DNA of 64,000 nt from Bryobacterales bacterium. Lineage in GTDB: Bacteria; Acidobacteriota; Terriglobia; Bryobacterales; Bryobacteraceae. Positions 16,986 through 44,635 of the stretch are shown here, one piece after another; position 1 is the stretch's first letter, and every line of letters begins with the position of its first letter. Made by a program: the position numbers and the translations under genes. The DNA lies in assembly GCA_020847975.1 (NCBI GenBank), contig JADLBD010000012.1, positions 62,001 through 126,000 of the forward strand. The letters run 5' to 3'. The notes below the pieces were generated by a model. The model saw nothing but the letters and a program-made list of their open reading frames with translations, made no database searches and was not told the DNA's origin.

Positions 16986-17678
16986 TCAGAGAGCCTTACG
17001 CAACGCCTTCTCCATCTCCAGCGGCGCGAAACCGTAAGGTCCGGGGGCGCTCTTAAAGGTAACGCGTCCCTGCCTGTCAATGACATACAGACGGTCCGGC
17101 CAGCCGGTGTAGGTGCGCTCGGTACGATTATCAATGCCGTCGAGCAAGGCGGGGATGGCGATGTTCAATTTGCGGACACAGGCTCCGGCGACCTGCGAAC
17201 GCTCCTCGTCTGATTTCGGATTGGCGTAGATGACGTCCTGACGGAGATTCACCGGCAATTGCCAGCCGTCGCTTGCGTGCGCCTCTTCAATGTAGACGAT
17301 ATAGAAGTCCACACGGTCTTTGTAGTCGTGGTAGAGCCGGTTGAGGGCGGGAACCTCCCGCCGGAACGGCGGTCAAGTGTAACTGCCGAAGACGAGGACA
17401 ACCGGCCGGCCGAGGCTGGAGGACAGTTTCACGCGGCCGGAGTTGTCCTGCCGGGGCAGGTCAAAATCCGGAGCCATGTCTCCAGGATTCAGCCTGCCGG
17501 CGCGCGCGATCATCCAGAGTCTTTGGAACGGCATGGTCATCATCAACAGCGGCGCGGGCACGCGAGAGATGACGGAGCAGAACCGGCCCGGCGGCAGCCT
17601 CATGGCCGCGAAAAGCGCACCCGCCGCGAGGAGCCAGACGATGGCGAGGGCGACGGCGATTCGGGCCAGAAAACGCAT
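16986..17678 (-). CDS. Iodothyronine-deiodinase-like redox protein, probable selenoprotein (Sec102 encoded by TGA)
   Basis: Reading from ATG 17678 to TAA/TGA stop at 16986 gives 230 residues only if the in-frame TGA at 17375-17373 is read as selenocysteine 102. The context is 'VLVFGSYT-U-PPFRREVP', which matches the deiodinase active site GSxTUPxF. Further along, 'VDFYIVYIEEAHASDGWQLP' (residues 123-142) is the deiodinase-specific block, including the conserved Glu and His (E131, E132, H134). Residues ~5-25 form a membrane anchor, as in vertebrate deiodinases, and 'APDFDLPR' starts the thioredoxin fold. A SECIS-like hairpin follows the TGA. Both halves are in the same frame and share one domain. 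The alternative is a Cys-to-stop pseudogene. Substrate in bacteria is unknown. Confidence 0.85.
17346..17362 (-). promoter_or_regulatory. Bacterial SECIS-like hairpin in deiodinase-like mRNA
   Basis: On the minus strand, GGCGGG (17362-17357), loop AGGUU (17356-17352) and CCCGCC (17351-17346) form a perfect six-pair stem. The loop starts 16 bases after the UGA (17375-17373), within the spacing known for bacterial SECIS elements, and has a G at its second position, as the SelB-binding consensus requires. An alternative CCGCC-GUUCC-GGCGG hairpin directly after the UGA competes with it. Function is inferred from position and shape. Confidence 0.65.
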
Positions 17679-40142: not shown

Positions 40143-43100
40143 TCAATTCACCGCATACACGCTCTGCCCCTGCCCCATGTACGCCTCATAGATGTGCTGG
40201 TACACGACATCGCACTTCTGCTCGTAGAGTTCCTTCGAGTACGCCCTCGGAAGCTGATCGAGGATGTCCTTGATCGTCGTGAACACCATCGCTCGGGTCG
40301 TTTGCTGCTTCCGCCAGTCGAGAACCAACTTCTCCTGCTTTAGCTTCTCCAGCAGCGACCTTGCCACCTTTTTCACTTCCCCCGACTCCTGCTTCGTCAG
40401 ACAGATTTCGGGCTTCGTCAGCAGATCGAAAATCACCAGTTCTTCTTCCGTCAGGTTCTCGGCAATGCCCCGTTTCTCTTCGGCATTCAGCTTCTTCGTG
40501 AACGCCATCAGCTTGGCGAAGAACGCCTCCACGTTGGATGACCCGGCGTTGTACTCGTCAATCATCTTCTGGAACTCTTCAAGGAAGTCGATCCGGGTCC
40601 GGTTCAGCTTCACCATCTGCGCCAATTTCACGGCGATCCTGGCCCGTAGCTTCTGGACCTCGATGGCTTTGCGGCCCTTATCGAATTGCGCCTTCAACCC
40701 CTCGAAGTCGATCTGGCTCAAGTCGACGTAGCGTGCCGGGTCGTTCCACACGGGCGGCATCACGTAGCCGTCCGCTGCGATGGATCTGTTCAGCAGGGCT
40801 TCCACTTCACCCATCACCGCTGAAATGTCCACCACCGGAAGCTCCGACCGGATCTTCTCGGCCACCACTTTGAATACGTTCGAGATCGGGCTGAACTCGA
40901 AAGCTGAGGCATCCGGCAGGAGTGACTGGAACAGCGCACCCACCGCAGTCGCCAGATTCAGGTATTGCCCCCTCGTTTCGTCGTTCACCACCAAAGCGGC
41001 GACGGCGTCTTCCTTCAACCTCTCCCGCTCGTAGCCTCGGGCATCCCGGATCGCAGCCGGATCAACCTTCCGCTCCAGGCAGAATGCCGTGGTTGTGGCA
41101 ATGGCTTCCCGCAGTTGCCGCACCAGTTCGCTCTTGTCGTGGATCGGCGTATCACCAGGACCGTCGCCGTCCTGTGGCGCCCCATAAATCGCCAGCGCCT
41201 TCTGAAGATTTCGGAACACGCCTACGTAGTCCACGATCAGGCCGTTCTGTTTGTCCTTCCACACTCGGTTGGCCCTTGCGATGGTCTGCATGAGCGTGTG
41301 ATTCTTCATCGGCTTGTCGAGATAGATGGTGGAGCACGAAGGCACGTCGAACCCGGTAATCCACATGGCGCACACGAACACGATGCGGAGCGGGTCATCA
41401 GAGTTCTTGAACTTCGTTTCCAGGTCTTCCTTCACCATTCTCTTTCGATGAGTGGCGATGTCGAGACCCTTCTTCTTGAACTCCTCGATTTCGTTCTGCG
41501 ACTGCGACACGACGACCGCCATGTCGGTTTCCTCGAAGAACTTCAGCCGTCGTTCGAGTTCCCGCTTGTCCACCAAACCATCAGGCAATGATTCGGCGGC
41601 GGCAACCTCCTTCCTCAACTTGGCGATTGCCGTCCTCCAGTGCGCCTGTACCTTGTCGAATGTGCGAACCGCCGTTGCCTTGTCAATCGAGATGACCATC
41701 GCTTTCGCAAGAACACCCCGGCCCACGTAATGCGCCACGATGTCTTCACCGACCCGTTCCAGACGGTCTTCTCTGGTGATGAGATGGTACTCTCTGGCAA
41801 ACTCCCGCTCCAGCTTGCGTTCCTGATCGTCGTCCAGGTCGGCAACTTCAATGATCGCCGCTATCTGTTCATTCAGATCGTCATTGATAAGCTGCATCTC
41901 CGGGATGCGGTTCTCGTAGTACAGGGGAACCGTGTTCACGTCGTCCACGGATTCCCGGAAGTTGTACACCGAGACGTAATCGCCAAAGACTTCCTTGGTC
42001 AGTTCCTCCCCGGCCATCAGCGGCGTTCCGGTGAAGCCGATGAATGCGGCGTTCGGCAGGGCGCTCCGCATGTTGGCGGCAAAGATGTCGTACTGGCTCC
42101 GGTGCGCCTCGTCGGTGATGACGATGATGTCCGGCCGGGTCGAGAGCACCGGGTAGCGTTCGCCATGCTCCGTGCGGAATTTCTGAATCAGCGTGAAGAC
42201 GTATCGGTGGTCTTCCTGGTTCAACATCCGCTTCAGGCTTTCGCCGCTGTCGGCCCGGACCCGCTTCTCGTCTTCGAGCACCGCCCCGGTGTTGGCAAAG
42301 TTCCGGTAGATTTGGCCGTCCAGGTCGTCCCGGTCGGTCACGATCACGAACGTCCAGTTGCCCGGTATGGTCCGCAACACCTTCTGGCTGAAGAAGACCA
42401 TCGGGTACGACTTGCCGCTGCCCTGTGTGTGCCAAAACACGCCGAGCTTGCCCTTGTTGCCTCTGATCTCCCGGACGGCGGCGATGGCATTGTTGACGCC
42501 GAGAAACTGGTGGTTTTTGGCAACCAGCTTGTTGAGTTCGCCCTTGCGCTCATCGAACAGCGTGAAGTTCTCAACGAGGTCCAGCAGTTTCCGCCTCTCG
42601 CAGGTGCCCCGGATCATCGTCTCCAGGCTGATGAGGCCGGGTTCCTTCTCCTCGTCAATCTTCTTCCACTCCGCAAAGTGCTCGATGCCGGCGGTCATGC
42701 TTCCGATCCGGGCTTTTGAGCCGTTGGAAAGGATGACCACGCCGTTGTACCAGAACACCTGTGGGATCGTGTCCTTGTAGTCGGAAAGGTTCTTCTCGTA
42801 GGCGAGTTCGAGTTTCTTGTGGGACGCCTTCAGTTCGATGAAAACAAGCGGGATGCCGTTGACGAAACCGACGAGATCCGCACGCTTCTTCCCGTAGTCG
42901 CCGCTGATCCAGAACTGTGACGCCAGCAGGAAATCGTTGTTGCCCCCGCCAATAGATGACCCGTTCCAGTCAATCAGCTTGATGTTTTCGACTACTTCTT
43001 CCTCGTCATCGCCACGCTTGTAGGCGACCTTCACTCCGTCCCTGAGAATCCGGTAGACCTCTTGATTGGCTCGGGCAGGACTCATGGCGCTGCGGTCCTT

Positions 43101-43337
43101 CGTTAACTCCTGGATGGCGACCTCGATAGCGTTCGGAGAAACGGCTGGATTCAGCTTCTCGATTGCAGGACGGAGACGACTCGGCAGAACGACATCGGCC
43201 ATCGTCTCCCGACCGAGCAGGGAAAGCGGCCCGAAGTTCTCGTGGTAGCAGTTCAGCGTCTCCCATCCCAACTCTGCGAAGAGAGCAATCGTGGGCTGTT
43301 CGATGGCGGCGTCTTCGGAGTCGGGCTTGTAGGTCAT
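40143..43337 (-). CDS. hsdR: Type I restriction endonuclease subunit R
   Basis: 1064 residues. The N-terminal HSDR_N nuclease region includes 'YGKKRADLVGFVNGIPLVFIELKAS', where the D and ExK (LVFIELK) form the PD-(D/E)xK site. The translocase has Walker A 'WHTQGSGKSYPMVFFSQ' (~310), 'FVIVTDRDDLDGQIYRNF' (motif Ia), 'ITDEAHRSQYDIFAANMR' (DEAH box) and 'AAFIGFTGTPL' (motif III), and later 'VFVCAMWITGFDVPSC' and 'QTIARANRVWKDK' (motifs V-VI). All key residues are present, so this subunit looks functional. It overlaps hsdS by 4 bases (ATGA). Confidence 0.95.
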   Translation of the reverse strand: MTYKPDSEDAAIEQPTIALFAELGWETLNCYHENFGPLSLLGRETMADVVLPSRLRPAIEKLNPAVSPNAIEVAIQELTKDRSAMSPARANQEVYRILRDGVKVAYKRGDDEEEVVENIKLIDWNGSSIGGGNNDFLLASQFWISGDYGKKRADLVGFVNGIPLVFIELKASHKKLELAYEKNLSDYKDTIPQVFWYNGVVILSNGSKARIGSMTAGIEHFAEWKKIDEEKEPGLISLETMIRGTCERRKLLDLVENFTLFDERKGELNKLVAKNHQFLGVNNAIAAVREIRGNKGKLGVFWHTQGSGKSYPMVFFSQKVLRTIPGNWTFVIVTDRDDLDGQIYRNFANTGAVLEDEKRVRADSGESLKRMLNQEDHRYVFTLIQKFRTEHGERYPVLSTRPDIIVITDEAHRSQYDIFAANMRSALPNAAFIGFTGTPLMAGEELTKEVFGDYVSVYNFRESVDDVNTVPLYYENRIPEMQLINDDLNEQIAAIIEVADLDDDQERKLEREFAREYHLITREDRLERVGEDIVAHYVGRGVLAKAMVISIDKATAVRTFDKVQAHWRTAIAKLRKEVAAAESLPDGLVDKRELERRLKFFEETDMAVVVSQSQNEIEEFKKKGLDIATHRKRMVKEDLETKFKNSDDPLRIVFVCAMWITGFDVPSCSTIYLDKPMKNHTLMQTIARANRVWKDKQNGLIVDYVGVFRNLQKALAIYGAPQDGDGPGDTPIHDKSELVRQLREAIATTTAFCLERKVDPAAIRDARGYERERLKEDAVAALVVNDETRGQYLNLATAVGALFQSLLPDASAFEFSPISNVFKVVAEKIRSELPVVDISAVMGEVEALLNRSIAADGYVMPPVWNDPARYVDLSQIDFEGLKAQFDKGRKAIEVQKLRARIAVKLAQMVKLNRTRIDFLEEFQKMIDEYNAGSSNVEAFFAKLMAFTKKLNAEEKRGIAENLTEEELVIFDLLTKPEICLTKQESGEVKKVARSLLEKLKQEKLVLDWRKQQTTRAMVFTTIKDILDQLPRAYSKELYEQKCDVVYQHIYEAYMGQGQSVYAVN

Positions 43338-44635
43338 GCGGTCTGCTCCGCAAGTTCGGCGGCGGTCTCGTCAGAGGCTTCGACCGGAATCTCGCCAGAA
43401 ATCAGCTTCGGTAGCAGGAGGTCTCGGGTTGTGCGGAGGTTGGCGTTCTTCGTGGACAGGGAGTGAATAAGGCGGAACATCGGCGTGACGGCCTCCCGGA
43501 ACCTCGCCAATGTCGTCCCATCGGGTTCGGCTAGGAAGAAGCGCCCGAAGCATGCCTCCTGCACTCGTTGTCGCCCCGTCGCACCAGACATGCTCTTGAT
43601 AGCGTTGTCCCGGAACTCGTTGGAGCGTGCCATTAGGTAGACGTATTCGGGGCAGACTGTCTTTGACCGAAGGACGATGAACTCGGTGGAACCGAAAGCT
43701 ACTGCGTCATCAGAGGACAAGAACTGAATGAACCCGGTCTTGCCGTTCTCCAGACATGGCGTGATCCGTGCGAAGAGCGTATCGCCGTTCTTGAACTTGG
43801 AGCCGCTATTGCCTTCTCGCTCTTCCACGCTTGTGATGAGCATCGAACCGTCTGAAAGGCTTCCCATTGGCACGAACGGCTTTGTGCCTTCTTTCGGAAC
43901 TTTTGTTGAAGGATTCACGTTGACGGCATCGGTTACGCACTTCGCAGTCCAACCCTCCGGTATCGGTCCCAACTCCGACTCGACCATCCGCACCTTTTCG
44001 TGGCCGGGGAAGCGGAAGTTGACGAACCACTCCCGGTAGAGCATCTGCGCCATCTCTTCGAGAATCTTGATGCGCCGGGCGTTGTTCTCGATCAGGTCGT
44101 CGTAGGCGGAAAGGATGGATGCAATGCGGCGCTGAACGGGAAGTGGCGGCGCGGTTAACAGCATTCGCCGCTGATCGGACAGGCTAACATAATCGGCCAT
44201 GTCGGTCAGCCCTTTCACGCTCTGAACCTGATCCAAGAACTCGGCACTCTGCATCCAGTAGAAGAGGAATCGAGGTTCAACGACGGACAAGTCGAGCACA
44301 CGCCAGAAGCATAGTTGCGGTGAATACACAAATCTCGGCGTCTGCGCCCGAACGAACGCAAATCGCCCCACAGTGCCTTTTGACGTGAAGACTATATCGT
44401 CTGGCCGGGACACCTTCTCGCCAGCCTTGGGTACGTTATCTTGATCCAGCAGGTCTGCGTCATCAAATAGGAAGCCACCGTTGATGTTCCCGGCCCTCGC
44501 AAACGGCAATCCCTCGCTACCCATCTCGGAGTTCTTGGCACGATAGCCGTCACCGATGTAGAGAGCCTTTTGTGCGATGAGATCGGCGGCACTCCGACGA
44601 GGCCATTGAGACTTGGATCTAGGCATTCGATTCAC
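43334..44635 (-). CDS. hsdS: Type I restriction specificity subunit S
   Basis: 433 residues with two target-recognition domains, each followed by a conserved helix. The first is '[40 protein letters not shown]', a strong HsdS central-spacer signature; the second ends in '[39 protein letters not shown]', the C-terminal spacer. It would set the bipartite recognition sequence, which cannot be read from the protein. The start overlaps the end of hsdM by 17 bases. Confidence 0.92.

Follow-up and report, generated by a model that had tools for sequence, protein, structure and literature searches.

A deiodinase-like selenoprotein gene in a Bryobacteraceae genome: in-frame TGA, hairpin, active site and candidate function

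One frame across a TGA codon

The stretch of DNA analysed here (the window) comprises 64,000 nucleotides from the genome of a soil-type acidobacterium of the Bryobacterales (contig JADLBD010000012.1). In a plain frame listing one of its genes is split into two minus-strand frames, 17678-17376 and 17372-16989, with a single TGA between them. Are these two genes or one gene for a selenoprotein and, if one, what might its product do? An earlier note, made from the sequence alone, proposed a single deiodinase-like selenoprotein. From an ATG at 17678, 101 codons lead to a TGA at 17375-17373, and 128 further codons in the same frame lead to a terminal TGA at 16988-16986. The whole selenoprotein gene (16986-17678, minus strand) encodes 230 residues if the internal TGA is read as selenocysteine, at residue 102 (17373-17375).

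The read-through protein matches PF00837 (T4_deiodinase) with 107 bits (E 1.2e-30, cut-off 27). The match crosses the TGA and covers residues 62-228 (16995-17495, minus strand). Scanned separately, the part downstream of the TGA gives 79.7 bits, and the upstream part lacks a PF00837 match, with only an AhpC-TSA match under the cut-off. None of 14 control genomes contains a PF00837 match. AhpC-TSA (46.2 bits, cut-off 26) and Redoxin also exceed their own Pfam cut-offs in the read-through protein. The closest solved structures in the PDB are mouse DIO3 (4tr3, E 6.5e-21) and DIO2 (9h48, E 1.5e-19), and a profile of 15 relatives matches them with E 1.4e-39 and 8.4e-36, respectively; matches to ResA-type and DsbE-type structures are present and weaker. 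We assign residues 62-228 to a thioredoxin/peroxiredoxin-type deiodinase-like domain. The TGA aligns with the catalytic residue of DIO2 and DIO3, in the motif GSYT-U-PPF, which is where the earlier note had placed it.

The bare pattern of two frames joined by TGA is common. With more than 90 codons required per side, 43 such pairs occur in the 64-kb window, the selenoprotein pair included. Ten of the other 42 were scanned against Pfam; five had no match and none had a match crossing the TGA. The significance of the join lies therefore in homology and conservation rather than in the pattern alone, and these rule out a chance join of two frames. Domains of a type I restriction enzyme R subunit (window 40146-43706, minus strand) were met in the same Pfam scan.

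We searched a species genomes collection and used the best 80 of the 340 relatives found (a few of these loci are near-copies or lie in the same genome as another). The catalytic codon is TGA in all 80. Since the catalytic place is Cys in one of the two search patterns printed, retrieval leaned, if anything, against TGA. The nearest of the best 80 is L058, with an 89% identical protein. Compared with L058, dN is 0.056 and dS 0.381 before the TGA, and dN is 0.063 and dS 0.747 after it (dN/dS about 0.08). Thus the two short frames form one protein, as proposed, with PF00837 spanning the joining TGA and this codon kept in relatives. Gene callers stopping at TGA would cut such genes in two. The record titles of the best 80 name acidobacterial groups, with L099 (titled Nevskia soli) as the sole exception. 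The L099 gene is 54% identical to the acidobacterial one, and the title may be wrong.

The SECIS hairpin and selenocysteine decoding

A hairpin with stem GGCGGG/CCCGCC and loop AGGUU follows the TGA (17345-17362, minus strand). In the window its stem has six pairs, 17362-17357 with 17351-17346; for the outer two pairs, the best fit across relatives leaves one base unpaired, at 17347. A six-pair hairpin with a G-containing loop had been predicted, and it is there. However, the predicted start, 16 bases past the TGA, has to be corrected to a gap of 10 bases. The GG of the loop forms the 18th and 19th bases after the TGA. In four stretches the single-sequence fold stands only modestly above shuffles (z -1.15 to -1.55), so the hairpin is established by comparison with relatives and not by this folding check.

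The comparison used 101 sequences (the window, the best 80 of 340 relatives, and 20 TGA loci from a draw of genomes across the phylum), of which some are apparently the same contigs and 98 rows are distinct. A structure with column 29 unpaired has 92.3% of cells paired, versus 81.8% for the straight register (14-30 to 19-25), which was rejected, and at most 66.2% when the partners are slid by 1 to 3 columns. Both sides changed in 54 cells, compared with 19.6 in shuffles, and covariation is 0.296 versus 0.105 (none of 500 shuffles was as high). In the best 80 relatives, codons +4 and +9 (counted from the TGA) have the third bases C-G in 33, G-C in 32, G-U in 11, A-C in 2 and G-G in 2; these differences are mostly synonymous. 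All 80 have CGG at codon +5 (elsewhere in these genes, CGG makes up 23% of Arg codons) and, where codon +7 encodes Val, it is GTT in 74 of 77 (15.5% elsewhere). A GG-loop hairpin with at least four Watson-Crick pairs is found in 95 of the 101 real sequences; 200 synonymous recodings keep it in 12.8 of 101 on average and in 22 at most. L026, one of the six misses, has three pairs, and L030 and L039 have other loops. The remaining misses (L031, L035 and L038) have, by eye, AAGATC-GG(U/C)-GATCTT a few bases further downstream. Pairing, covariation and the recoding results agree that the hairpin is a bacterial SECIS element.

The earlier note also called for a search for the selenocysteine machinery, whose absence would have spoken against its proposal; the proposal withstood this check. 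We identified selA (494.1 bits), selB (387.6 bits) and selD (365.3 bits), each above its curated cut-off, and tRNA-Sec, all in the same assembly (8.67 Mb, 302 contigs, 89% complete, 7% contaminated). The tRNA-Sec model gives 78.2 bits (it also matches all 14 control genomes, above cut-off in 5), and ARAGORN confirms tRNA-SeC(tca), with anticodon TCA. The four loci are on four different contigs; their G+C content (0.595-0.629) is similar to that of the window (0.613), which is no proof of a single organism. Because the selD match (L055, G000:C28:7143-8060) contains a single in-frame TGA, SelD itself is probably also a selenoprotein.

From these computational results, selenocysteine at codon 102 is nearly certain. 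They strongly support a mechanism in which SelB and tRNA-Sec, guided by the downstream hairpin, would decode UGA codon 102 as selenocysteine. It is extremely improbable that the UGA is instead a real stop, a pseudogene mutation, a sequencing error or a codon for another amino acid. Such a reading could appeal to the single draft assembly, with its 89% completeness and 7% contamination, and to L138 (G404:C284), where the catalytic codon is GGA (Gly) while the hairpin is kept. It would have to account for TGA at all 80 of the best relatives, a few of which share a genome, for the dN/dS of about 0.08 past the TGA and for SECIS covariation at synonymous bases. General reassignment of UGA is ruled out, because 22 of the same 80 relatives use TGA as their terminal codon. 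In L138 the rest of the gene looks intact and selA is present in the genome; its GGA may be a mutation or an error.

In the draw across the phylum (396 genomes), PF00837 is above cut-off in 30 genomes and the TGA form is present in 23. In a second draw, from the window's family (150 genomes), the corresponding counts are 65 and 52 (the window's own genome is included in both draws). Within the genus, three of the four other members in the family draw have a PF00837 match. The gene is thus widespread yet patchy. The earlier note described deiodinase-like selenoproteins as known from metagenomes but from few cultured bacteria. The first part agrees with marine metagenome reports of 2005 and 2008 (PMC1088965; PMC2398784); in its own group the protein is not rare, given the TGA form in 52 of 150 family genomes. 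The protein is dispensable, as 85 of the 150 family genomes have no PF00837 match above cut-off. In the phylum draw, selA is above cut-off in 21 of 23 TGA-form genomes and in 229 of the 373 others (p 0.003); in the family draw the counts are 48 of 52 and 76 of 98 (p 0.024). These p-values overstate the support because the sampled genomes are related. The TGA-form genomes in which selA is not above cut-off (G314 and G341 in the phylum draw; G424, G478, G489 and G536 in the family draw) are perhaps incomplete assemblies.

The active site and the second thiol

The block EEAHASDGW (17262-17288, minus strand), with the His134 that the earlier note had singled out, is confirmed downstream of the TGA. 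Its Glu132, His134 and Trp139 correspond to DIO3 Glu200, His202 and Trp207. By alignment, Ser99, Thr101, Sec102 and Tyr129 correspond to DIO3 Ser167, Thr169, Sec170 and Tyr197, and Arg160 to Arg225. All eight are identical at all 81 loci (the window and the best 80 of 340 relatives). These residues have been assigned to a proton network, an omega-loop anchor and a loop-controlling Trp, and several mutants are inactive (PMC11592359; PMC7506546). The core catalytic network is thus shared with animal deiodinases, as are GSxTUPPF, an EAHxSDGW-type block and, by homology, the thioredoxin fold (compared with 9h48 and 4tr3). In eight Cys or other forms, Ser, Tyr and Glu are kept in 8, His in 7 and Trp in 5; the Thr position has Thr in 4 and Ser in 4, and the Arg position has Arg in 5 and Lys in 3.

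Other DIO3 residues have no equivalent among the same 81 loci. His219 and Arg275 are each replaced by Pro in 75 and Ala in 6, Cys168 by Tyr in 79 and His in 2, and no equivalent of Cys239 is found in the alignment. DIO3 His219 is His174 of DIO1, which is important for activity of the rat enzyme (PMC7506546), and DIO3 Arg275 (DIO2 Lys241) is a proposed holder of the amino-acid end of the hormone (PMC11592359; PMC7506546). The centre of the chemistry is kept and the thyronine-holding part is not. We therefore do not file the protein as an iodothyronine deiodinase; together with a second thiol of its own (below), this makes it deiodinase-like rather than a thyroid-hormone deiodinase. As a deiodinase-like selenoprotein of an acidobacterium the original proposal stands, with PF00837, the catalytic Sec, the SECIS and the sel machinery all present. 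A clade with an intact catalytic network and without the thyronine-holding residues is common in the family (52 of 150 genomes). Our tree places the two animal sequences with L026-L029 (83/98, open, on a long branch) rather than with the window's clade. This placement rests on two fragments and a long branch, and we do not rely on it.

Cys167 (17178-17180, minus strand) is the single other thiol in the window's domain and is our proposed partner of Sec102. It is present at 81 of 81 loci (the window and the best 80 of 340), and in 79 of these the domain has no further Cys besides position 102. Cys is at 150 instead in L026-L029 (4 of 4), at 100 instead in L031, L035 and L038 (3 of 3), and at 168 in L046 and L047. 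The Sec forms L030, L050 and L053 have no Cys at 100, 150, 167/168 or 175, and L052 ends before position 167. In the same numbering, DIO3 has Cys at 100 and 175, and DIO2 has Cys at 175 and three other places. Three Cys forms whose N-terminal part is long retain the Cys167 equivalent (L041, and by eye L139 and L140). In these three, the deiodinase-like domain lies behind TPR-like repeats (by eye) and has the motif GSY(S/T)CPNF.

In human DIO1, the Cys two residues before Sec forms a selenenyl-sulfide with it (PMC9141512). A simulation placed DIO3 Cys239 too distant from Sec170 for direct resolution (PMC7506546). In window numbering, Cys239 falls eight residues past Cys167, which counts against Cys167 as a resolving thiol, as do the Sec forms L030, L050 and L053, which fit none of the placements. 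The differing positions suggest that bacterial subfamilies use different resolving thiols, Cys167 in the window's clade. In PrxQ-type peroxiredoxins, too, the place of the resolving Cys differs between subgroups. The window protein resembles these in its AhpC-TSA match above cut-off and in one further thiol whose place varies by subfamily. Unlike them, it has Leu rather than Pro at -7 relative to the catalytic residue, Sec, and the deiodinase-type block. The peroxiredoxin motif is PxxxT/SxxC. In the selenoprotein this motif is absent: Ser99 is at -3 at all 81 loci (best 80 of 340 relatives and window), and -7 is Leu95, invariant in 15 aligned rows. The Sec form, the Cys form and several placements of the second thiol make a compact test set for deiodinase chemistry outside thyroid hormone.

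We regard the selenoprotein as a distinct variant within a known bacterial deiodinase-like family. Bacterial members of PF00837 were described in 2005 from the Sargasso Sea, with a table giving four unique sequences (PMC1088965), and from the Global Ocean Sampling in 2008, with a table row reading 22, 12 and 21 (PMC2398784). For these proteins the 2005 paper proposes redox activity on something other than thyroid hormone. The window's gene shares with these marine selenoproteins the PF00837 domain, the catalytic Sec, a bacterial SECIS and the occurrence of both Sec and Cys forms. However, those came from marine metagenomes and this one from assembled acidobacterial genomes, in a clade that carries Cys167. 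Two reviews, of 2022 and 2026, tabulate bacterial members without a function and with the motif UxxC (PMC9312934; PMC13188914), and the 2008 table gives no motif. At all 81 loci (window and best 80 of 340) PPF follows the catalytic residue, and UxxC does not occur. Since mouse DIO3 also has PPF and the 2008 table is without a motif, we take UxxC as the label of one representative and not as defining. NCBIfam NF038285 (deiodinase family protein) matches residues 66-226 with 197 bits, but this is under its 250-bit cut-off and covers only model positions 179-340 of 347.

Among the matches listed in a search of open-access literature (titles and beginnings of abstracts), none was a biochemical study of a bacterial member, and none dealt with a member from Acidobacteria. 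The word deiodinase is absent from the searched text of PMC5029168 and PMC12013277. For the acidobacterium Occallatibacter riparius, the latter gives three selenoprotein genes as known, and for Acidobacteria as a group PMC1794560 gives three selenoprotein families. Thus, an acidobacterial deiodinase-like member may already be among those counted.

Location, gene neighbourhood and possible function

Residues 7-25 (17604-17660, minus strand) form a hydrophobic segment (mean hydropathy 2.55 over 19 residues), and hydropathy of at least 1.6 in this N-terminal segment was found at 80 of 81 loci (the window and the best 80 of 340). This makes the N-terminal membrane anchor of the earlier note probable. 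The flank before the anchor is more positive than the flank after it at 53 of these 81 loci, less positive at 8 and equal at 20; the difference is small (mean net charge 2.9 versus 1.5), with start codons chosen by rule. The pattern suggests export and a periplasmic domain. Animal deiodinases are membrane-anchored (PMC9141512); the bacterial protein is probably anchored too but, unlike them, is probably exported. By eye, the hydrophobic stretch of L046, L047, L143 and L144 ends in (Ala or Val)-X-Ala-Gln, which is signal-peptide-like, and the hydrophobic core of L042, L049 and L051 ends with Cys, followed by Phe-Pro.

Neighbouring frames of at least 110 codons were compared at the same 81 loci, over 12 kb on each side in the window and up to 10 kb (for many, less) in the relatives. 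No gene is conserved beside the selenoprotein gene, so that a conserved operon partner is rejected for these loci, and no neighbour hints at a substrate or reductant. The commonest neighbour cluster, encoding a protein of about 1,100 amino acids, occurs at 22 of 81 loci in scattered positions. The neighbours in the window recur in L058; beyond that, L072 matches one window frame and L059 one antisense frame. Phage records contain no match to the selenoprotein, and plasmid records contain nine, at up to about 40% identity over 31-64% of the query.

We moderately favour a Sec/Cys oxidoreductase that is exported, is tethered to the membrane and closes a bridge between Sec102 and Cys167. One N-terminal helix would hold the product in the membrane, with the thioredoxin-fold domain probably in the periplasm. 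Sec102, within the network of Ser99, Thr101, Tyr129, Glu132 and His134, would attack a substrate that is oxidised or electrophilic, with a peroxide or disulfide as the likeliest. As conservation suggests, Cys167 would capture the oxidised selenium as a selenenyl-sulfide, and a thioredoxin-like partner would reduce this bond.

The seven network residues with DIO3 equivalents that are identical at all 81 loci (the window and the best 80 of 340) are those of the deiodinase proton network, omega-loop anchor and loop control (PMC11592359; PMC7506546), and they would also fit an exported reductive dehalogenase. Sec102 would then take iodine or bromine from a soil organohalogen, and Cys167 would regenerate the selenol. 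We consider this possible but unlikely, with Pro or Ala in place of DIO3 His219 and Arg275 and no gene of any kind conserved alongside at these loci. In addition, most of the network persists in the eight Cys or other forms, and thus it may serve any electrophile. Peroxide or disulfide turnover seems likelier than dehalogenation, although both roles named in the earlier note, dehalogenation and peroxide reduction, are still candidates.

A protein of the same build could instead, in a TlpA/ResA-like manner, exchange thiols and disulfides with one particular partner or repair it, with neither peroxide nor halogen chemistry. The AhpC-TSA and Redoxin matches above cut-off, the weaker ResA-type and DsbE-type structures and the N-terminal anchor are consistent with this. 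However, the PPF after Sec leaves no CXXC-type pair and deiodinases are by far the best solved relatives, and we regard this role as rather doubtful, and prefer the oxidoreductase acting on peroxide or disulfide.

A broader proposal is that exported selenoenzymes widespread in Acidobacteria use the deiodinase network for reductive dehalogenation of natural organohalogens, each subfamily with its own resolving Cys, and retain the ancestral deiodinase chemistry. This is speculative and, in our judgement, rather improbable. If true, the chemistry from which the animal thyroid-hormone deiodinases arose would be preserved in an acidobacterial family.

Elsewhere in the window, a guanidine-II riboswitch (mini-ykkC) was identified at 2422-2464 on the plus strand (35 bits, gathering score 32).
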